A DNA stretch of 64,000 nt from a virus. The position numbers were made by a program, and so were the translations under genes. A model generated the notes under the pieces. That model was not told the origin of the DNA, searched no databases, and saw only the letters and a list, made by a program, of their open reading frames with translations. Where the stretch lies: positions 1 to 64,000 of the IMG/VR virus record IMGVR_UViG_3300047274_000210; one strand, given 5' to 3'. This document shows, one piece after another, positions 2,983 through 56,286 of the stretch (within the stretch, counting starts at the first letter, position 1; every line of letters begins with the position of its first letter).

Positions 2983-3819
2983 TTACCTCGGAGCAAAGTC
3001 TTGCTGTAGTTTAATATTATCGAAGAATTCTTTCTTCGTTCCTGCATCATCTTTAAACGCACCTTTAAGCACAGTAGTCTGTGTCAGCGAACTATGCGCC
3101 ATAATGCCGCGATTCTCGCAGCAGCCATGAACCGCTTGAACATAAACACCTACGTCTGTGGCTCCTGTGGCCTTGGCGATCTCGCGAGCAATATCATTAG
3201 CAAGTTCCTCCTGGAGAGTTCCACGTCTTGCACACCACTGTGCGATACGGGTGTACTTACTGAGCCCAATGAGCTTGGAAGCCGCAATAATGCCAATATA
3301 GGCAACACCACTAACGGGCTGATGATGATGGCTACACATACTGCGAAGCTCACTGCGAACAACCAACATACCTTCGTAACGGTCCTCCGAATCATTCGGG
3401 AACGCTGTGCAATCTGGGGCTTCGTCATATCTACCACTCATTATTTCGTTAAAATACATTTTAGCCAATCGTCGAGCTGTGCCTTGACTATTGGGATCTG
3501 TTTCGCGGTCGATTAACAAACGATCTAACACGAGTTCAAATGCTTCTGTTGCTTCGTTGATTAGTCGTTCTTTATCGCCTTCCTGCAAGTAGTCACTGAT
3601 ATTATCTCCTGCCCAGAAACGTTTTTTATCACGTTTCATTTTAGTGCGAATAACATCTGCAAAGTATGCTTCTTGATATCCACCATCTCCGGCCATGGCA
3701 TCTAAGGCTGTTTCTTTTTTAATGTAGACTGGTTTGCCTAGGGGTTCGTATTCGTCTTTCACGAATGTTTTGTCGATGCCTGCGTTAAGAACAGGATCGG
3801 GTTTGAATTTTTCTGACAT
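2983..3819 (-). CDS. folE: GTP cyclohydrolase I
   Basis: 278 residues, about 55 longer than the E. coli enzyme because of an N-terminal extension. Converts GTP to 7,8-dihydroneopterin triphosphate, the entry step of folate, tetrahydrobiopterin and 7-deazaguanine (queuosine) synthesis. SMCSHHHQPVSG (about residues 160-171) and HGCCENRGI (about 231-239) supply the zinc ligands Cys-His-Cys; KLIGLSKYTRI and LQEELANDIA are the conserved core. Start ATG at 3819 follows GGAGAATAATCG. With the QueD-like gene at 55.6 kb and the DpdA-like gene at 7.5 kb it could feed a 7-deazaguanine pathway; with ThyX at 61.7 kb it could also supply folate. Confidence 0.93.
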   Translation of the reverse strand: MSEKFKPDPVLNAGIDKTFVKDEYEPLGKPVYIKKETALDAMAGDGGYQEAYFADVIRTKMKRDKKRFWAGDNISDYLQEGDKERLINEATEAFELVLDRLLIDRETDPNSQGTARRLAKMYFNEIMSGRYDEAPDCTAFPNDSEDRYEGMLVVRSELRSMCSHHHQPVSGVAYIGIIAASKLIGLSKYTRIAQWCARRGTLQEELANDIAREIAKATGATDVGVYVQAVHGCCENRGIMAHSSLTQTTVLKGAFKDDAGTKKEFFDNIKLQQDFAPR

Positions 3820-3854: not shown

Positions 3855-4955
3855 TTATTTTAACATTTCTAGTAGATTATCGCAACTAAAGAAATTCTTA
3901 GCTAATATATCTACCTGTTTATTTAGGCTTGGCAAGAATTTTTCATAATTTTCCATATACTGGATAATTTTATAGCAAATATCTTTTCTATATACAGTAT
4001 AAGATTCAAATGATTCGGTCCATTCGCTGGGATAAGTGAATGTATCAAGAGCCATTTCTGAATAGCTGAGTCTGTCGGGAATCATCGGAATAGCATCGAC
4101 TAAGGCACCTTCGTACCAACTAATACCCAGTGTTTCTTGTAGGTTGGCACTAAACACAAGTTTTGCTTCACCTAACATATTATGGTATTCATTTTTAGTT
4201 AGTGGATATTCTTGACAGACCTTGAATTCATATTGTGGTAAGTGTTCTTTGAGATCCAAGAAGATATCTAGTTGTTTCTCTGGAGCAAGACGATGAGGAA
4301 AGAGTATGAGATTCTTCTTTGGCATGTTCTTATACATGGCCAAAGTGTCTGGCATATATTCCATCGGCCATCCACTCCTAATGATATTAGGCCATTGTCC
4401 GTCTAAGATTTCTTCCATATCTTCGTACAGCCAAGGATTCTCTGTAGGAAAATCGTTTAATAGATTTTCAACAAACATCCTAATATGGAATTTAGTAGCA
4501 AAGTAGTTATGATCAAATGCTGCAAAAAAACTTTTCTCTGCATGTCTGACCCAAGGCTTATTACCAACAAGGCGACCTAAGAAGTCCTGTGGATCATAGC
4601 TGCCAGCATGCCATAATCCATGAGTAACAACAGGAATACCTAGTAGCTCACTCATATACTTTAGATTTATGATACCAGGGTGCCAAGCATCAGTAAAGAT
4701 AAAGTGATCACCAGGAGCCACTGATCCGGAGCAAAACAACCGGCCCATTTGCTCAACTTGGCTAGACTTATATATATTGGTGCCGCCAAAATTAAGAAAA
4801 GCGCCAGGAGTGGTTGCACTAGGAATATCCGTAGGGCCAGATATAACTTGAACATTGTGACCTCTCTTTCGTAAAAGGTCAGGCAAGTGGGTTTTCCACT
4901 GGCCTGTATACCTTGTCTCAACGGCCTCTAGATCAACGAGAAAAATTTTGGCCAT
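3855..4955 (-). CDS. GT-B fold glycosyltransferase (family 4-like)
   Basis: 366 residues. N-terminal Rossmann half (MAKIFLVDLEAVETRY..HLPDLLRKRGH) and C-terminal nucleotide-sugar domain with ILFPHRLAPEKQLDIF (about 217-232) and AKLVFSANLQETLGISWYEG (about 269-288), the E-x7-E type motif of GT4 enzymes. Expected to move a sugar from a nucleotide sugar to DNA, a host glycan or a protein; the acceptor is not readable. A GGAAGACGTA ribosome binding site precedes the ATG. Placed between folE and small unknown proteins; a DNA-glucosylating role as in T4 is possible but unproven. Confidence 0.8.
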   Translation of the reverse strand: MAKIFLVDLEAVETRYTGQWKTHLPDLLRKRGHNVQVISGPTDIPSATTPGAFLNFGGTNIYKSSQVEQMGRLFCSGSVAPGDHFIFTDAWHPGIINLKYMSELLGIPVVTHGLWHAGSYDPQDFLGRLVGNKPWVRHAEKSFFAAFDHNYFATKFHIRMFVENLLNDFPTENPWLYEDMEEILDGQWPNIIRSGWPMEYMPDTLAMYKNMPKKNLILFPHRLAPEKQLDIFLDLKEHLPQYEFKVCQEYPLTKNEYHNMLGEAKLVFSANLQETLGISWYEGALVDAIPMIPDRLSYSEMALDTFTYPSEWTESFESYTVYRKDICYKIIQYMENYEKFLPSLNKQVDILAKNFFSCDNLLEMLK

Positions 4956-5200: not shown

Positions 5201-5596
5201 TTAGTACTTGATGAAACTACCATTTTCTCCGTCTTCGGAGACCTCAATCCAGATTTCACGATCTGGATACTTTGTGTGAATCTGAGCATATAAGTCATCG
5301 CTCATCATCTCACAACTCTTATAGTCTAGCGACAATACACCTTCGTTGCTAGAATACAATTTTTCCAACCATCGTTTGAATTGTATAAATTCCACATCTC
5401 GGTCATTGTGGGTGACACTAAGCCATACCCTAAAATGAAAAATATGGCGATGGGGATTAGCCAAAAACGATACATCATACTCATCTCCTGTTGCTAGATT
5501 AGGATCTGTTGCGGCTGCGGGATATTTGTGAATACCTTCTTTACGAAAGGTAACCCAAATCATTTTGTTTGGACGAACATCTTGTCGAACAATCAC
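5201..5596 (-). CDS. conserved hypothetical protein (131 aa), GTG start
   Basis: The GTG at 5596 overlaps the upstream TGA (GTGA) and is preceded by GAAGGAATGTTAAA, so it is preferred over the ATG at 5563. Core motifs NPHRHIFHFRVWLSV and IWIEVSEDGENG are typical of a protein repeatedly found beside folE in T4-like aquatic phages. The double His stretch might bind metal. Function not known. Confidence 0.65.
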   Translation of the reverse strand: MIVRQDVRPNKMIWVTFRKEGIHKYPAAATDPNLATGDEYDVSFLANPHRHIFHFRVWLSVTHNDRDVEFIQFKRWLEKLYSSNEGVLSLDYKSCEMMSDDLYAQIHTKYPDREIWIEVSEDGENGSFIKY

Positions 5597-5796: not shown

Positions 5797-6146
5797 CTTT
5801 TTAGTGCCTCCATCATGACGATCTTGCCTAGCGCATCGCCCAGATCTTGATCTTCGGTGATAACATGTATACTATTCATATTTTCGTCCTTTCGACGATC
5901 ATAGCTACGAGTTTCTACAACATAACCTCCGCTTGCTCGATAGATCTGCATACGCATGCCTTCGCTAGAAAGTCTGTCTGTTTCTACAAGCTGAGGGACA
6001 TCTTGTTCGTAATCGTCATTGTTTAACCAATTACGAATACGTTGTTTGAATGTAAGTTTCACTTTTTGTTTCCTAATTTTGCGAGCGGGCCTAATAGCAG
6101 ATACTTTGGCTTGACCGCCTGCCGATGTTAATCCATAACCACTCAT
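5793..6146 (-). CDS. conserved hypothetical protein (117 aa)
   Basis: Basic N-terminal third (RPARKIRKQKVKLTFKQRIRNW) followed by a mixed alpha/beta domain ending in a helix (DLGDALGKIVMMEALKR). ATGA overlap with the upstream gene. Family not recognised beyond being a T4-like phage small protein. Confidence 0.6.
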   Translation of the reverse strand: MSGYGLTSAGGQAKVSAIRPARKIRKQKVKLTFKQRIRNWLNNDDYEQDVPQLVETDRLSSEGMRMQIYRASGGYVVETRSYDRRKDENMNSIHVITEDQDLGDALGKIVMMEALKR

Positions 6147-6700
6147 TTGATTATCTCATCCTTGCCATATTGATCCCAGTCGGTAAAACGATCTCTACCA
6201 ATGAGGTCCTGTAGGTTATGGCACCAAACCCCAGGATTAGTTGCTGCAAAATCCTTGTCGTCGATCTTAAGTGTAGCATTATATCCAAGTTGATTAATAT
6301 AAGGTAATTTTACACTAATCTGCGGAATAAATCTACGCTTTTCGGTAAGACCGCTCTCTAGCAATCCTTCCGTTTCGCGAACATCAAAGTCTAAGGTACA
6401 CCAGAGATCGTATTCGCTGTCCAGGCAAACATAGATCATATTTTCCCAAGGACGCCAAGTCTCAACATCATTTACCCCATTAGTTTTAAAACTTTGATTA
6501 GCACCAAAGTAGATATGTGTAATGTGCTTAGATTGATCGATATAAGACCTAGATTCTCTTACGATATCTAAGATCGTATACGGATCATGGACTCCTACTA
6601 CAAATAGAGTTTTCATTCCGTAAGCAGGAGTTTGCTCAATCTCTATACCTGTGAAGAAGGTAATAGATTCAGAAACACCAGATGCATAATTTCTTTTCAT
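6143..6700 (-). CDS. conserved hypothetical protein (185 aa)
   Basis: Starts MKRNYASGVSESITFFTG and has a Rossmann-like beginning (TLFVVGVHDPYTILDIV) and conserved blocks HIYFGANQSF, TWRPWENMI and NPGVWCHNL. It lies between folE and the DpdA-like gene. I checked for a radical-SAM CxxxCxxC motif (QueE) and for SGGxDS (QueC) and found neither. Function unknown. Confidence 0.6.
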   Translation of the reverse strand: MKRNYASGVSESITFFTGIEIEQTPAYGMKTLFVVGVHDPYTILDIVRESRSYIDQSKHITHIYFGANQSFKTNGVNDVETWRPWENMIYVCLDSEYDLWCTLDFDVRETEGLLESGLTEKRRFIPQISVKLPYINQLGYNATLKIDDKDFAATNPGVWCHNLQDLIGRDRFTDWDQYGKDEIIK

Positions 6701-7323: not shown

Positions 7324-7516
7324 AGTCTACAGTTTCGTGATCGTGTTCCCATTGCAGTCTAGTAAGTCTAGCAATTTCGTCCTTAAAAAGCAACCTCTGT
7401 TTCTTCAATTCCTCAAGTTTGAGGTCTTCATACAATCCATTTTGTAACAATGTTTCGATTTGTTTATCGAGTAGTCTATGAGATTCTTGCAGATGTTTAA
7501 TTCTATTCTCATACAT
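7307..7516 (-). CDS. DUF465/YdcH-like small coiled-coil protein
   Basis: 69 residues from the ATG at 7516 (MYENRIKHLQESHRLLDKQI). The pattern HRLLDKQIETL..LKLEELKKQRLLFKDEI is that of the DUF465 family (Pfam YdcH), short antiparallel helical hairpins of unknown role, common in proteobacteria and also in phages. Its first 8 nt overlap the end of the transglycosylase gene. Confidence 0.65.
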   Translation of the reverse strand: MYENRIKHLQESHRLLDKQIETLLQNGLYEDLKLEELKKQRLLFKDEIARLTRLQWEHDHETVDYDDER

Positions 7517-9053
7517 TTTGGGCCTCCTGTTCCAAAAATTCATGTTCGAGTTCATCTAACTTATCTTCATCCAATACTGGCATGGCAGATACTTGAGACA
7601 CTGACTTATCTAAAACGATTTCTTCTGATTCAAAATGCTTGTTAAAGGTGTTATTAGCATTGCCACCACGCAGACGCATGCCCATCATTTTGTTTAACAT
7701 AGGTTTAGCATCTTCGATCATCTGCATTGGAGTTTCGCTCTTGAATAACTCTTCCACAAAGTTATTAAAGTATAAGATGTTGCGAGGAACCCATTCGCTG
7801 TACTCATCGCTCTTATCCATGTCTTTGAGATTTTTCCACTGACGCCAGCTTGGACTGATCTTAGCAGACTCAATATCCATTAGATGATTGGCACGTTGAA
7901 CAGCGACGATATGACAATATGTATTATGCGCCATCATTAGAGCATAACCGAAACTATCCCAACTAGTTTTGCCTTCCTTGCCAATCTTGTTCAACATTCC
8001 TGGCTTGTACCAGCAGATATCTCCGATGGACAGTCTTCGACCAATTTCTGATTCGAATGGAAAGGGGACATTAAAAGCCTGGCTAAGGGCTTTGTTGTCT
8101 GGGGCCTTGTCCATGATGACTGACCAACGCTTGTTGGTGTGCTGTGCGTTGGTATAGACGAGACCGTGTGCTGTAGCAATGAAGGGTGATGCGCAGTCAA
8201 AAGAAATGGTAAAGTTTTCATTTACATGCTTCCTAATTTGTCTTTGGATTAGAGTTAGATAGCAGGCCCAGTCTAATTGTGCTGTGCCCAAGAAGTGCAT
8301 CCAGTTTCTATTATCTAAAAGTTTTTCATCACGCAAGATGATAAGCCTTTTTAGTGCGACTTCCATGTCACACATGTTCTTACCACCCATGGCCCAACCT
8401 TCTGTTGGAAGATGTTTCACTGCTTCGTACCATGCCTGTGCGGTTTCCCAGTCACTGCCTTGTAGCACGTTTAAGAATTTAGTCTGTCCTAAGCGATTAC
8501 GAATAAAGTAATCATTATTGTGTAGAGTTTTATCTAAGCAGTCTTGAAAGCTCTTTAGTCCAGTTTTAGGACTATGAATATGATCGCTGGCCCAAGTAGG
8601 AACGTCTAGCAACATCGACCAATCTGCGGTCAACTCTAACCAATTTAAAATATTATCTCTGACCTTGTTAGCAGCGGGGCCTTCGAAGTTGTGCCAATCA
8701 AATTTAAGAACACCTTTACCGATCTGATAACCACCTGAGTCGCCAACGATTACAGTATTAGCACGATCTCTATCTTGGATCATAGCATCTTGGATCATAG
8801 TTTTTTCTAGATCCAGTTGGGCATGACCTGCAGAGTATAGTCCGTATTTGTAAGTGAAATATCCTTGTTCGGGATTAAGAAAATTCATTCCCTCAATACC
8901 GCGATCAAAGCCCTGCGGAATCCTATCCTGTGGAACAAATTCGTCGAATCGTTGTTTACTGATATATGTGCTGAAAAAACAGCTGATAGCCGGAAGATAT
9001 ACTGCGTAATCTTTCTGTAATGGTGTTAAGTTAACTGGTGGTCTATTTGTCAT
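7509..9053 (-). CDS. TGT/DpdA-like 7-deazaguanine transglycosylase
   Basis: 514 residues, longer than bacterial TGT (about 375). VIVGDSGGYQIGKGV (about 100-114) matches the DSGGFQ substrate-binding Asp block and FTISFDCASPFIATAHG (about 284-300) the nucleophile-Asp block of the tRNA-guanine transglycosylase superfamily; FLNVLQGSDWETAQAWYE and GWAMGGKNM match the GIVQGG-type strands. The usual CxCxxC zinc site is not evident, although an AHNTYCHI segment aligns with the TGT helix that carries the zinc His. DpdA relatives exchange G in DNA for preQ0-derived bases. Together with folE and a QueD-like gene this suggests DNA or tRNA base exchange; which one cannot be decided here. Confidence 0.75.
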   Translation of the reverse strand: MTNRPPVNLTPLQKDYAVYLPAISCFFSTYISKQRFDEFVPQDRIPQGFDRGIEGMNFLNPEQGYFTYKYGLYSAGHAQLDLEKTMIQDAMIQDRDRANTVIVGDSGGYQIGKGVLKFDWHNFEGPAANKVRDNILNWLELTADWSMLLDVPTWASDHIHSPKTGLKSFQDCLDKTLHNNDYFIRNRLGQTKFLNVLQGSDWETAQAWYEAVKHLPTEGWAMGGKNMCDMEVALKRLIILRDEKLLDNRNWMHFLGTAQLDWACYLTLIQRQIRKHVNENFTISFDCASPFIATAHGLVYTNAQHTNKRWSVIMDKAPDNKALSQAFNVPFPFESEIGRRLSIGDICWYKPGMLNKIGKEGKTSWDSFGYALMMAHNTYCHIVAVQRANHLMDIESAKISPSWRQWKNLKDMDKSDEYSEWVPRNILYFNNFVEELFKSETPMQMIEDAKPMLNKMMGMRLRGGNANNTFNKHFESEEIVLDKSVSQVSAMPVLDEDKLDELEHEFLEQEAQNV

Positions 9054-9055
9054 TT

Positions 9056-9454
9056 TTATGGGCTCGCCTGTACTTCTGCCATTTCGCCGAAGTCTGAAGT
9101 ATCTCTGGCTAGTGTAGCAGTTATTTTAATTTGTTGTTTTGCTTTTTCTAAATTGTCTAATGCTATTTTAACAGCTTGATTATCTTTTGCCAATGATTCC
9201 CAAGCCAATTCTTCATCACGCTTCTTACGTGCCCAATCGAGTAAAGATTCTGCATCCGGTGTTAAACCTACCGTGGCATGGCTCATATTGAGCATGACCC
9301 AGTTGTTACCGTCGAATACTTCCATGTTCTGAGTAGAAGTATTAAATCGCATATTACCAACACCTTGTTGTCCTGAATAAGAATTTACATAGGTGCTGGC
9401 ATTACCATTAGATATTGTCATATAACGACCGGATTGTGTGATGCCTTTGATCAT
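9056..9454 (-). CDS. conserved hypothetical, probable virion-associated protein (132 aa)
   Basis: Opening MIKGITQSGRYMTISNGN and the phrase NTSTQNMEVFDGNNWVMLN recall fibre-type ornament domains, followed by a helical charged half (SLLDWARKKRDEELAWESL). This arrangement is frequent in aquatic T4-like phages. TAATG overlap with the clamp gene. Role unknown. Confidence 0.6.
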   Translation of the reverse strand: MIKGITQSGRYMTISNGNASTYVNSYSGQQGVGNMRFNTSTQNMEVFDGNNWVMLNMSHATVGLTPDAESLLDWARKKRDEELAWESLAKDNQAVKIALDNLEKAKQQIKITATLARDTSDFGEMAEVQASP

Positions 9455-10191
9455 TAGGCCGCCTGTGCTGGAATGATGTATTTGTAAACTGCAAGTCCGC
9501 TGTCTAGAGTGATCTGGATAGCACCTTCGTTGCTCAACGACATCTTGGTGTTATTAACATCCGCAACCTTGAGAATACTTAAGATTGGTAGAACAGGCCA
9601 TGTCCAGCCTCTGTCAAGTTTACCTGCTACACTCTGAGCGAAGATGAACTCTCCTGCATGAGTCGATGCATCACCAAAGATAAACTTTAGATTACCGCCT
9701 TCGGTTTTGGCTAAGAATGTTGGATGTTCGTTATGCGCACCTGCTTGGAAGTTAAAACGCTGTACTGCGGCAACAGTGGGTTCGATTTCAACATCCCATT
9801 TAACACCGCGGAATTTCACAGTCTTCATCTTTTCGTTGATGATTTCCTGATTCATAAAACGATAGTCGTTTTTGAAGTCACCATCTTTGTTTTCAAAGTG
9901 GATGCCGACCGGTATAGTTTCGCCGTTGCGCTCAGCAAACGTGATATTGATCTTAGCTTCTTCTTTGTATTCAGCACCGTCTACTAGATATTTTAATTTC
10001 TGTAGTTGCGGCATACCAAATGTACCGATCATGTCGGGATATGGATTAGCAGTTTCTGCCTCCATAATAACTGATCGATCGTCAGCCATTGAAAAGATCT
10101 GTGTCTTATCTTCTGAACCTGTGACTTTGACTGTGGTTAAGAAGCCTAGATTTTGTGTGTGGCTTACGATGTCTTGTAAAATGTCTTTCAT
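9454..10191 (-). CDS. 45: sliding clamp (T4 gp45-like)
   Basis: 245 residues, close to the 228 of T4 gp45. Trimeric processivity ring for the gp43 polymerase and, in T4, the mobile activator of late transcription. The sequence shows the two-domain clamp pattern with a KFIFGDASTHAGEFIF strand pair and a C-terminal VYKYIIPAQ strand. Its neighbour is the polymerase, and the clamp loader gp44 is at 30 kb. A host-type promoter lies directly upstream (10217-10245). The recognition rests on family pattern and context rather than on a catalytic motif. Confidence 0.88.
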   Translation of the reverse strand: MKDILQDIVSHTQNLGFLTTVKVTGSEDKTQIFSMADDRSVIMEAETANPYPDMIGTFGMPQLQKLKYLVDGAEYKEEAKINITFAERNGETIPVGIHFENKDGDFKNDYRFMNQEIINEKMKTVKFRGVKWDVEIEPTVAAVQRFNFQAGAHNEHPTFLAKTEGGNLKFIFGDASTHAGEFIFAQSVAGKLDRGWTWPVLPILSILKVADVNNTKMSLSNEGAIQITLDSGLAVYKYIIPAQAA

Positions 10192-10253: not shown

Positions 10254-12923
10254 TCACTCAAAATCAAACAATTTGCTAAAGTTATTATCGGACCTAGTAG
10301 AACCTATGTCCCATTCTAGTACACCTATTAGGTTTTCTAGTTTTTCATCGATGATGGTAGTTTCCATCTCTGCATGATCAAACGGCAGATCCTTGAACCA
10401 TTGAGGGAGTCGAAGCTCATCAACAGGATAAGCAACGGATGTATAGCCCATTGGATTGTCTTTGACCTTGCAGACAATGACTTTAGCGCCATCGACGATG
10501 TTCATCGAGTATTTGTCGTCCATCATACGCTTCAAGGTATTCCAGTTAAGGCTAGCACGTACATGTCCTGGCATGTTGGCTTTGCCTGCTTTCTTTTCTT
10601 TATTAGCGTATTCTGTAATATTATTGGCACGTTTGGGAGATCCTTTCTCCCAACCCGGTCTAGTCTTGAAGTCTGTTCGGAAGTCTGTGATATAGTTTAG
10701 CACATCTTCGCGATCTTCACCATTCAACACTCGAGTAAGCACATCAGACAAGAAGTCTTGAATGACTACAGGAGTATCTGATCGCTTAAGGTCCAGGCCC
10801 ATGGCCTTGATCTTTCCGGTTTTACCATCAAGATCCTGTCGTTTACCTTCTTTGTCAAAGTATAGAACAGCATATCGTTTCTTGGTAATGAATAAACCTT
10901 TTGATGCGACAATTTCACGACCGGCCTTGATAACTTCGCCGCGTGTTTTAGGAACGTGGAAAGCATCTTGCATGAATTTAGGAAATGTTGAATTAACTTC
11001 TTCTCCGATGGTATCATATAGTTCGATGATATTGTCTTTACTCCACGGAATAAGACCTTTATCAATGTCTTTCTTTAGAGTATTATAGGCGCTGAAATAA
11101 CAACTGTCTGTATCACCGTAGATAATGGCCTTGCCTATATGATTGTACTCACCGGTAATGATTTCATTTACTTTACTGGCCATGTGACGAGCAATAGCAC
11201 GACCAGTAAGTGTAGTCGACTGTCCGATTCTATTATCAAAGAAACGGCAACCGGGATTAAGAATAGCACCGTACAGTGAGTTGAGATTAATCTTTTTAAC
11301 TAACTGTCGCTTATCCCAATATTCTTCTTCGATTTTATTTCCTGCCGTAATTGATTCTTTGAGCTTTTTCTGCATGTCCTTGCGTTCAGCATACCAACGT
11401 TTTAGTAGGCCGGGAATGATACCTTCTTTTTCGTAGGTAAAGATCGTACCGTTAGCTGATAACATCCAAGGTTGATTGCTGTCAAAGATTAAATCATAAA
11501 TCTGTGCTGCACTTAAGGTATCATTATTACCATCTTCCCAGTCTATGGTAATTTCTCTACCCACTTCTTTTGACATCACAGACGTATATTCAATACTACC
11601 AAACATACCTTCCCATGCCGCTGCAAAGCTCTTGCCTTTGCCCATTTCGGCGGCAATATAATCCTTGGTACCATCTTGACGCAGTTGTCCTACGATAGTT
11701 TCCGGCCCCATATTTAGGGCACGAATAGCAGAAGGATAAAGAGAATTAATATCGAGAGAACCAATCCATTCATGGATACCTTTCTTGGGATACGCAACAT
11801 AAGCACCTGCGGCCTGTGTATCGCCGTGTTCTTCCATTTTGCGACGATTAGGAACGATCATTCCCCGCTTGTGTGCTTCATTAATAATGGCCTGTTCAGT
11901 AACAGCTACAGCACCCATGGTAGTCTGTAGTAGAACTGTACATTCGTGGGCTAGTGTATTGGCTAGATCTAAGAATTTTAGTTTCTTATCTAGCTTATCT
12001 AACAGCGCACAGTCTTGACGATTGTACTCAATAAACTTGCGGAAGTCGTTGTTATAAAGTTGATCCAGTGTACCTTCGTAGACAGTCTTACTTTCACCGA
12101 CTTCCATTTCTCCGATAGCGTCTAATCGATATGTATGGCGTTCTTCATAGGTATACTTTCTATAAAGTTCGAGACTGTCCAGGTGTACTCGTCCGATGAG
12201 ATCGTAGGTAACGGCAGTTTTTCCAAACTTTTCATATTCACGCTTCTTAGGAAATTGATTCCAAAGACAGAATCTACGTGTATCTTCTTTTGACAGAACT
12301 TTAGTTACACGGTTGACAGTATAGGGGATATCAAAACCTTCCGAGTTCCAACCACTAAGCACGTCTGCATCTTGGATAAGATCTAAGAAAGTGTCTAACA
12401 TGTCTGCTTCGTTATCGAACAGCATGGTATTAGGGAATTCTTCTACAGCCTTCTTGGCCTCAGCCATGGATAATGTTTTCGGAGGAATAGCAAGACAGAC
12501 CAATGTGTTCATCCATTGCAGATGCACAGCGATGGCAGTGATTGGCATAAATGCATCGTCTGGCGATGCATATCCTCGTTCGGGATCAAAGTCTACTTCA
12601 ATATCGAAAAATGCTACATTTAGCTTTGGAGCATCTTGATTAAGGTAGTGATCTTCGAGACATCGATAAATGGGGTTAATATCGGATTCATAAAGAGTTT
12701 TATTTGAGTGGATCGCTAGCTCTTTACGAAGTTCTTTGATGTTCTTACAGATTACACGAGTTAGAGGATCTCCATAGATCGATTGGAATTTACCTCTAGG
12801 ATCTCTGTAGTAAAACAGGTGTTTGGCAGGGTAATCTTTGAAATGCCTTTGCCCTTTGCCATCGCGTTCAACGACATGAATCATGTCCTCGTCGCGATTG
12901 TAGAATGCGTCAACGTAGCTCAA
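10254..12923 (-). CDS. 43: family B DNA polymerase (T4 gp43-like), TTG start
   Basis: 889 residues. Exonuclease motifs: DIE at about 107-109, NSEGFD at 193-198, YNRQD at 300-304. Polymerase motifs: DINSLYPS (391-398), KKINLNSLYG (543-552) and YGDTDS (602-607), then KKRYA at 681-685. All catalytic carboxylates are present, so the enzyme should polymerise and proofread. The start is a TTG at 12923 preceded by CGGAGAAAAAA. A 5-bp hairpin sits 3 nt upstream of that ribosome binding site (see the operator entry) and a TATAAATA late element at 12999. No intein or intron interrupts the gene. Confidence 0.97.
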   Translation of the reverse strand: MSYVDAFYNRDEDMIHVVERDGKGQRHFKDYPAKHLFYYRDPRGKFQSIYGDPLTRVICKNIKELRKELAIHSNKTLYESDINPIYRCLEDHYLNQDAPKLNVAFFDIEVDFDPERGYASPDDAFMPITAIAVHLQWMNTLVCLAIPPKTLSMAEAKKAVEEFPNTMLFDNEADMLDTFLDLIQDADVLSGWNSEGFDIPYTVNRVTKVLSKEDTRRFCLWNQFPKKREYEKFGKTAVTYDLIGRVHLDSLELYRKYTYEERHTYRLDAIGEMEVGESKTVYEGTLDQLYNNDFRKFIEYNRQDCALLDKLDKKLKFLDLANTLAHECTVLLQTTMGAVAVTEQAIINEAHKRGMIVPNRRKMEEHGDTQAAGAYVAYPKKGIHEWIGSLDINSLYPSAIRALNMGPETIVGQLRQDGTKDYIAAEMGKGKSFAAAWEGMFGSIEYTSVMSKEVGREITIDWEDGNNDTLSAAQIYDLIFDSNQPWMLSANGTIFTYEKEGIIPGLLKRWYAERKDMQKKLKESITAGNKIEEEYWDKRQLVKKINLNSLYGAILNPGCRFFDNRIGQSTTLTGRAIARHMASKVNEIITGEYNHIGKAIIYGDTDSCYFSAYNTLKKDIDKGLIPWSKDNIIELYDTIGEEVNSTFPKFMQDAFHVPKTRGEVIKAGREIVASKGLFITKKRYAVLYFDKEGKRQDLDGKTGKIKAMGLDLKRSDTPVVIQDFLSDVLTRVLNGEDREDVLNYITDFRTDFKTRPGWEKGSPKRANNITEYANKEKKAGKANMPGHVRASLNWNTLKRMMDDKYSMNIVDGAKVIVCKVKDNPMGYTSVAYPVDELRLPQWFKDLPFDHAEMETTIIDEKLENLIGVLEWDIGSTRSDNNFSKLFDFE

Positions 12924-54953: not shown

Positions 54954-55629
54954 GTACATAAGGATCTTGTATATCGTGAGGATTTGGATCACCATGGAAT
55001 ACACAGACACTACAGTCCTGAGGAATCTTTACATTCTTCACTGTTTTGAAAAATCTCTTACCGCCTTCGTAGGCCAGCTCGTTTCGATCCCGTATTTCCC
55101 ATTTATAGCTTTGGATCCATAATTCAGGCCAAAATTTAATTCGATTCTTAGCTATCTGCCATATCCAATCTTGATCTCCGTGTAGTCGTTGTGCTCTATT
55201 AAGATCATCTTTGAAAACTGTAAAAATGTCAGGGTGTCGGCCAGCATTCCAACTCATGACAGAACTGTTCAACATGTTCCATTGTGGATTGAATTTTCTA
55301 TTGAAATCTCTAATGCCTAGGAATTCGTCTTTGTAGTTTTCTACTAATTTATTGATATTATCATGGATGATAACATCTAGATCGAAGTATAGTATCCTAC
55401 CTTCTAGATTAAGAGACGGGTCAAACAGATGTACCTTATGCCACCATAGTTTTTTATATCCTTGGCTTGGAAGGTATACGATATTGACACCGTCTATGGG
55501 ATGCTGATCATCTGTGAGACAATTAAATCGATACGGCAGAGTGAGATGCCTAGAAACCATGTTACGTAGTTTTTCTACATAGTCTCTGCCGTATTTGTTA
55601 CCTAATCGAACACAGATTACATTAATCAA
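54937..55629 (-). CDS. GT-A-like glycosyltransferase, TTG start
   Basis: About 230 residues from a TTG at 55629 (MINVICVRLGNKYGRDYVEK), which overlaps the QueD stop. RILYFDLDVIIHDNINKLV has the DxD metal/nucleotide-sugar motif; HGDQDWIWQ and CVFHGDPNPHD are further acid/His motifs of family GT8/GT32-like phage enzymes. Likely transfers a sugar to a host or phage surface structure; the acceptor is unknown. The long frame to 55674 is inside queD. Confidence 0.65.
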   Translation of the reverse strand: MINVICVRLGNKYGRDYVEKLRNMVSRHLTLPYRFNCLTDDQHPIDGVNIVYLPSQGYKKLWWHKVHLFDPSLNLEGRILYFDLDVIIHDNINKLVENYKDEFLGIRDFNRKFNPQWNMLNSSVMSWNAGRHPDIFTVFKDDLNRAQRLHGDQDWIWQIAKNRIKFWPELWIQSYKWEIRDRNELAYEGGKRFFKTVKNVKIPQDCSVCVFHGDPNPHDIQDPYVLDNWR

Positions 55630-56164
55630 GATTCCAATCCACTTGATAAATTGCAGAGTTGCCTGCGTGTTCAAATACTTCTGCAGATTTGATACGCACA
55701 GTTGGATTAAGCGGATAACGGTGATTACCGTTCTTCAGCAGCCAATCCATCTTATCATAGCACATCTTAGCAAACAGTTCGCAGCCAACACCTTCTACGA
55801 TGCGTAGATCACAGACACCCTTGCGATGGAAAGGTTCAGTTTGTACACGTTCCGGATTTCCATCATGCTCTGGATCACTGCTCCAGCCGGCCATCTCTTT
55901 GAATCTAGGTAATAGTGGATCATCTTCAGCGATCACTGTGGTATGATCAAACATATAGTCTGCCCATGCTTTGAAATCTTTTAGTCCACCGAAATCCATG
56001 CCCCAATTCTTTTCATCTAGTGTGTCGCATTCGAACACAAGTTTGATACCAATTGAGTAACCATGTAGCAGTGAACAATGGCTGTGTGTGGCACGCCATT
56101 GTCTAAAGCAACAACTAAGACCTCTATCGTTGCCGTAAGTTTTTGTTGAGTAATATTTCGCCAT
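55622..56164 (-). CDS. queD: QueD/6-pyruvoyl-tetrahydropterin synthase-like protein
   Basis: 180 residues from the ATG at 56164 behind AGGAGGCAAGAG. GLSCCFRQWRATHSHC (about 13-28), LLHGYSIGIKLVFE, MDFGGLKDFKAWADYMFDHT and a C-terminal SAEVFEHAGNSAIY follow the 6-carboxytetrahydropterin synthase layout. The Cys before LLHG is present, but the canonical HGH zinc pair is HGY, so the third ligand may be lost; this variant is common in phages. It would convert dihydroneopterin triphosphate towards preQ0. Own promoter upstream. Alternative: pterin-sensing or other PTPS-family activity. Confidence 0.8.
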   Translation of the reverse strand: MAKYYSTKTYGNDRGLSCCFRQWRATHSHCSLLHGYSIGIKLVFECDTLDEKNWGMDFGGLKDFKAWADYMFDHTTVIAEDDPLLPRFKEMAGWSSDPEHDGNPERVQTEPFHRKGVCDLRIVEGVGCELFAKMCYDKMDWLLKNGNHRYPLNPTVRIKSAEVFEHAGNSAIYQVDWNLD

Positions 56165-56286
56165 CTCTTGCCTCCTGTAAAAATAAGCGAGTAAGTTTGA
56201 TGACATGCAGAATTTATATAGCGGGTTGAATGCCATTGGAGACCGCTGTGCTCTGTGTGTAAGTGTATATTATACTGTGAGAGTAT
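56165..56286 (-). promoter_or_regulatory. regulatory gap upstream of the QueD-like gene
   Basis: 122-nt gap without a convincing gene. Holds a TTGCAT-N17-TATAAT promoter at its upstream edge, the TATAAATA element at 56284, and a second TATATAAATT stretch near 56211. A frame through it (MAFNPLYKF...) lacks a ribosome binding site. Confidence 0.4.

Follow-up and report, generated by a model that had tools for sequence, protein, structure and literature searches.

A putative DNA 7-deazaguanine transglycosylase subfamily of large phages, likely tethered to the sliding clamp and possibly coupled to a glycosyltransferase

Introduction

A stretch of viral DNA of 64,000 nucleotides (positions 1 to 64,000 of the IMG/VR record IMGVR_UViG_3300047274_000210, hereafter the window), whose source contig is a 66-kb virus fragment, carries a gene for a large protein that an earlier note, made from the sequence alone, had read as a transglycosylase of the TGT/DpdA type modifying DNA. 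The locus raises the questions of whether such an enzyme acts on DNA or on tRNA, how it would reach phage DNA, and which base it would insert. The core idea of that note holds, and to it are added a new subfamily, a likely tether to replication and a possible new end product.

A gene family of large phages

The gene at the center of this analysis is the following.

7509-9053, minus strand: DpdA-like transglycosylase, 514 aa, ATG start

This open reading frame proved to be a real gene. The 514-aa protein gave zero matches in Pfam, PHROGs and NCBIfam, as well as in the PDB when searched by sequence. Its relatives are encoded on over 590 viral contig stretches and in 13 deposited phage records, in all of which they are annotated as hypothetical proteins. 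Eleven of these records belong to Pseudomonas jumbo phages, including PA5oct, Paride, MIJ3 and Callisto, with about 42% identity; the remaining two are Vibrio phage 2.275.O and Sinorhizobium phage Phosso. No cellular homologue was retrieved via conserved patterns in 84,980 genomes.

Fold and active site

An AlphaFold2 model, computed from 31 sequences (that of the window and those of viral contigs), reached a pLDDT of 86.4 and a pTM of 0.86. This structure prediction, a check proposed beforehand, yielded a TIM barrel of the TGT type. All 23 PDB matches found by Foldseek at E<=0.001 are TGT, QTRT or DpdA (7ui4), and alignment to TGTs by VIA-align gives Z scores of 18-19 over about 300 residues, the best being 19.0 over 303 residues. 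The active-site blocks are located as follows, with conservation counted among 30 homologues.

8724-8741, minus strand: DSGGYQ, residues 105-110, conserved in 30/30 apart from Y109
8598-8618, minus strand: SMLLDVP, residues 146-152, D150 in 30/30
8457-8462, minus strand: QG, residues 198-199 (Gln203-Gly in TGT), G199 in 30/30
8187-8201, minus strand: FDCAS, residues 285-289, D286 in 30/30, aligned to FDC of E. coli TGT

The alignment comprises 30 divergent homologues with 31-75% identity to the window protein, and residues D105, S106, G107, G108, Q110, D150, G199, H253, L255, G256, D286 and S289 are invariant in all of them. Position 198 is occupied by Q in 20, S in nine and H in one. According to motif order and hhalign matches, D105 corresponds to Asp102 of TGT, D150 to Asp156 and D286 to the nucleophile Asp280, in the Z. 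mobilis numbering. Because their key residues are conserved in 30/30 divergent homologues, the DSGGYQ and FDCASP (residues 285-290) motifs are not a product of chance; with D105 and D286 invariant, they do keep the substrate and nucleophile Asp positions of TGT, as had been claimed. The zinc Cys site was correctly described as not seen, the CxCxxC...H signature not being conserved in the 30 homologues, and the greater length compared with TGT is confirmed, the extra residues being partly an insert and a low-confidence tail (pLDDT <50 at 460-495). A remnant metal site formed by D345, C347, H376 and H381 was considered and rejected: although conservation largely holds at these positions, two relatives carry Ala in place of C347.

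Judged by the modelled barrel and by its three Asp residues, two catalytic and one for base recognition, the protein belongs to the TGT superfamily.

Relationship to DpdA and TGT

DpdA2 was defined on the protein YP_008125322 of Vibrio phage nt-1, whose DNA contains dPreQ0, dADG and dG+ (Hutinet et al. 2019, PMC6884629). In profile-profile comparison with hhalign, the new family matches DpdA2 with a probability of 95 and an E of 4e-8, whereas, among the controls, reversing the DpdA2 profile lowered the probability to 0.15 and unrelated families did not exceed 1.3. A plain DpdA2 profile recovers 0/235 family members at E<1e-3, and plain sequence search links the family to neither TGT nor DpdA2. 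The family is therefore a cousin and not a member of DpdA2. By sequence comparison with DpdA2 and one DpdA1 candidate, it appears to form a separate subfamily akin to DpdA2; the DpdA1 candidate, from phage Seurat, gave no match.

The new family resembles DpdA2 in its fold class, as seen by profile match, in motifs of the DSGG, D-x-P, QG, H-x-LG and S[YF]D-x-x-S types, in having FolE, QueD and QueE as neighbours, and in a clamp-type C-terminus, seen in 4/7 DpdA2 tested. It differs by being about 50-110 aa longer, by an unrelated C-terminal half and by its occurrence in a clade of large-genome phages. With the bacterial DNA preQ0 insertase DpdA (PDB 7ui4), it shares the TGT barrel (Foldseek rank 20), but there is no sequence match, and the structural E of 6.4e-6 is weaker than that for TGT (6.5e-8). 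The tRNA TGTs of Z. mobilis and T. maritima share the fold (Z 18-19) and the catalytic Asp positions, whereas the window protein is devoid of the zinc CxCxxC and of any Pfam hit and bears a long disordered tail. If this placement is right, a large unnamed DpdA subfamily would cover the well-studied Pseudomonas jumbo phages PA5oct, Paride, MIJ3 and Callisto.

Replication context and a putative clamp-binding tail

The transglycosylase gene lies directly behind the polymerase and clamp genes.

10254-12923, minus strand: family B DNA polymerase
10257-10286, minus strand: polymerase C-terminal peptide NNFSKLFDFE
9454-10191, minus strand: predicted sliding clamp, 245 aa (phrog_12062, function unassigned), model pLDDT 92.5
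7620-7655, minus strand: candidate clamp-binding peptide of the transglycosylase, residues 467-478 (around FNKHFE, 470-475)

The modelled structure of the 9454-10191 protein matches PCNA (Foldseek E 2.6e-11) and, on this model, the protein is a PCNA-like sliding clamp. In 217 loci, the clamp gene shares the strand of the DpdA gene and stands at most 1.5 kb upstream of it. A 132-aa gene with weak, tail-fibre-like PHROG matches is found between both in the window, at 9056-9454.

The tail of the transglycosylase, disordered in the model, contains NNTFNKHFESEE, and its peptide is of the F-x-x-L-F-[DE] type, as at the C-terminus of the polymerase. The motif expressed as hydrophobic-x-x-[LFMH]-F-polar, picked after the tails had been seen, occurs in 41 of 69 non-redundant tails versus 5.0 expected from shuffled tails and in none of the control stretches; it is missing from the other 28. 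Because this expression was chosen post hoc, permutation of the polymerase partners is the fairer test. Among 36 phages, the tail matches the polymerase of its own phage with a score of 22.8 versus 19.6 (sd 0.75) for permuted partners, a difference inflated by the kinship of the phages; none of 5000 permutations reached the own-partner score, and shuffled tails score 14.0.

The same correspondence is seen when polymerase and DpdA ends are paired, as in 2.275.O for the new family (NNTDLFDW/NNNDLFGW). Some DpdA2 ends form a case apart, their peptide being of another type: SSLESLFG/QSLEELFG in X1, PSLDDLFE/TTLDELFE in ACP17, SSLEDLFGW/NSLDDLFG in Marzo and STLDDFFS/ASLDSFFD in BUCT-ZZ01. A clamp-type end is absent from the DpdA2 of nt-1, phi-Grn1 and pf16. 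In nt-1, a DUF5591 (ArcS-like) protein ends with SLANFF, to be compared with the polymerase end TLESFFG (L141:2504-3181), although the DpdA2 of this phage has no such end. In BUCT-ZZ01, a second glycosyltransferase-like gene adjoins DpdA2, and its product has a clamp-like end, SLEDFFND (L145:1653-2993).

The peptide shared by polymerase and DpdA, along with the DpdA2 of four phages, suggests that DpdA is probably tethered to the phage sliding clamp. The tail peptide might instead bind another partner or be a chance low-complexity match, a reading in keeping with a motif picked after inspection and with the many tails that do not have it. This is rather unlikely, as the tail resembles its own phage's polymerase more closely than it does permuted partners, and the resemblance recurs in DpdA2, there through a peptide of another type. 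Moreover, the C-terminal clamp peptides of T4 gp43, gp55 and gp33 resemble and can replace one another, that of gp55 being carried on a variable linker (PMC2988020).

For the favored clamp tether, a counterpart is known in T4, whose alpha-glucosyltransferase is a binding partner of the gp45 clamp (Sommer 2004, with confirmation in PMC13216743). Both would be DNA-modifying enzymes on a phage sliding clamp, the present one being a candidate from its sequence, but enzyme class and base are different and, in T4, alpha-glucosylation did not owe its dominance mainly to the clamp tie (PMC13216743). A literature search for a tie between DpdA and a clamp retrieved no paper.

This context also bears on the substrate. 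A tRNA-guanine transglycosylase modifying host or phage tRNA during infection would have the very same fold and active site. It is nevertheless a highly improbable reading, since the TGT family PF01702 gave no match in the 13 phage records, the CxCxxC-H zinc site is not conserved, the window has no tRNA gene, and the gene clusters with polymerase and clamp genes while the tail bears the clamp-type peptide of the polymerase. Of the claim made in the earlier note, the TGT/DpdA-like part thus stands on fold, active site, DpdA2 profile match and linkage to FolE, QueD and QueE, whereas DNA as substrate rather than tRNA is backed only indirectly by the polymerase/clamp context and the common clamp peptide. 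Taken together, the protein is very probably a DNA 7-deazaguanine transglycosylase. Restriction or modification data were sought in the literature for PA5oct, MIJ3, Callisto and Paride, and none were found.

Precursor genes and a glycosyltransferase in place of QueC

The window further includes genes whose products may supply and process the base.

2983-3819, minus strand: FolE, GTP cyclohydrolase I (PF01227, E 5.7e-38)
55622-56236, minus strand: QueD-like PTPS protein (PF01242; phrog_2389, E 9e-35)
3855-4955, minus strand: GT4-like glycosyltransferase (GT), 366 aa, with E274-x7-E282 and R222-x4-K227
5201-5563, minus strand: 120-aa protein (phrog_17812), travelling with the GT
6143-6700, minus strand: 185-aa protein, with a homologue adjoining DpdA2 in phage ACP17

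FolE and a QueD-like gene had already been noticed in the window, and Pfam confirms both. Among the 13 records examined for the family, FolE is present in 13, QueD in 10 and QueE in 12, the sole gap for QueE being the 66-kb contig of the window, a fragment. Larger relatives display the order DpdA, GT, FolE and then QueE about 5 kb further, so that the QueE of the window is placed just beyond the contig end. The proposed search outside the window for QueC, QueE or GAT-QueC was successful for QueE (12/12 other records). Neither QueC nor QueF was found in the lineage, even where contigs measure 353-364 kb or, as for Paride and Phosso, the genome is complete, with the exception of 2.275.O, whose homologue sits in a QueF-YhhQ-QueC-GAT-FolE-QueE cluster (GAT-like protein). 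The predicted products dPreQ0, dG+ or dADG, made with QueC or GAT-QueC, thus find no support in this lineage: QueC and QueF are missing from the large relatives, which have the GT and the 120-aa protein instead.

Several details of these pathways are worth recording. Contig G001 encodes a short (197 aa) ATP pyrophosphatase, QueC-like and of the N type, that ends in CGKCHSC (L090:1498-2091) and was found in this one relative only; under the cut-off and present in no other record, it was rejected as the missing QueC. Radical-SAM matches amount to up to 14 per contig (G003) and 10 in G002, far above what QueE needs. In the phage QueE, the third cluster cysteine lies tens of residues past the second (GCNFKC...GCDS), a displacement common to this lineage and a Vibrio DpdA2 phage (L126:471-1322, L132:268-1149). 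In 2.275.O, the gene after the DpdA homologue is marginally amidoligase-like (E 1.8e-4; L082:13726-14835).

The GT gene is about 35 bases from FolE and has the same direction. PF00534 is detected in nine of 13 GT family members at E<=0.1 (best 8e-12), the window member alone giving E 0.14, and the PDB match is the GT4 enzyme WbnH (E 1.5e-4). Homologues adjoin DpdA2 in ACP17 (phmmer E ~1e-54), X1 and BUCT-ZZ01, and the new-family enzyme in Paride. With three members as tblastn queries, the GT family was found in 16 of 50,697 phage records, all of them DpdA carriers having either the new family or DpdA2. In a set of 20 records, which are not independent and in which several contigs are fragments, 15 have the GT, and QueC over the cut-off occurs only in the other five; this exclusion is qualified by QueC-like hits below threshold in X1 and G001. 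Ten named isolates are split five versus five across both DpdA subfamilies: the GT is found in Paride, Phosso, X1, ACP17 and BUCT-ZZ01, and QueC in 2.275.O, phi-Grn1, nt-1, pf16 and Marzo.

Of 42 loci, 39 have the 120-aa protein together with the GT, and three have neither of them near DpdA. The 120-aa protein is also located near FolE, with no DpdA or GT nearby, in three phages of Rhizobium, Aeromonas and Vibrio (L343, L344, L345), and because of this linkage its substrate may be the base in free form, before insertion. A PTPS fold, suggested by a likeness seen by eye, was dismissed, as neither hhalign nor Pfam supported it. In RHph_I1_18 the neighbour of the phrog_17812 gene is a macrodomain gene and in D479 it is a dNMP kinase gene, which makes a nucleotide-level route possible.

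QueC is present in many hosts. The absence of a phage QueC does not fix the base, since the host may supply this enzyme, and an ordinary DpdA could insert preQ0 made with host QueC while the GT acts elsewhere. Consistent with this, 2.275.O encodes its own QueC, and the DNA of the DpdA2 phage nt-1 has dPreQ0 (PMC6884629). The confinement of the GT to DpdA phages devoid of canonical QueC, in both subfamilies, makes such a scheme improbable, and the inserted base is likely not made by a phage QueC.

With FolE, QueD and QueE but no QueC, the pathway stops at 7-carboxy-7-deazaguanine (CDG). The base could then be plain dCDG or 7-deazaguanine, with the 120-aa protein processing CDG and the GT modifying another target. 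The three genes are present without QueC, and the 120-aa protein does accompany FolE in phages with no DpdA or GT nearby, but the restriction of the GT to DpdA phages would be left unexplained, and this variant appears rather unlikely.

Proposed mechanism

In the preferred scheme, FolE, QueD and QueE would produce CDG. The transglycosylase would remove guanine from phage DNA, with D286 as the nucleophile, D105 as the acid/base and D150 for base recognition, and insert a CDG-derived 7-deazaguanine (CDG itself or a derivative). Its tail peptide, like the C-terminus of the polymerase, would hold it on the phage sliding clamp, so that base exchange would follow the fork. The GT4-like glycosyltransferase and the 120-aa protein would next act on the base, possibly by attaching a sugar, a branch standing in for the QueC branch of other phages.

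As a whole, this scheme of a clamp-tethered DNA transglycosylase, a CDG-derived base and GT/120-aa processing is reasonably probable. Glycosylation of the final product is its weakest step, with a chance falling slightly short of even. More tentatively, a widespread module of large phages may be considered, in which a clamp-tethered transglycosylase would install a QueC-independent 7-deazaguanine and a dedicated GT would add a sugar on DNA. If correct, riding on the clamp would answer how a base-exchange enzyme reaches new phage DNA. A glycosylated deazaguanine, testable by LC-MS, is predicted; as a glycosylated purine it would be new to DNA, where it would arise in the wake of the replication fork, and there is a chance that the end product is a base not yet described.

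A last observation concerns PA5oct, whose genome was sized at about 375 kb by pulsed-field gel (PMC3936114) versus 286.8 kb when sequenced (MK797984), a gap that could be explained by terminal repeats or by altered migration of modified DNA.
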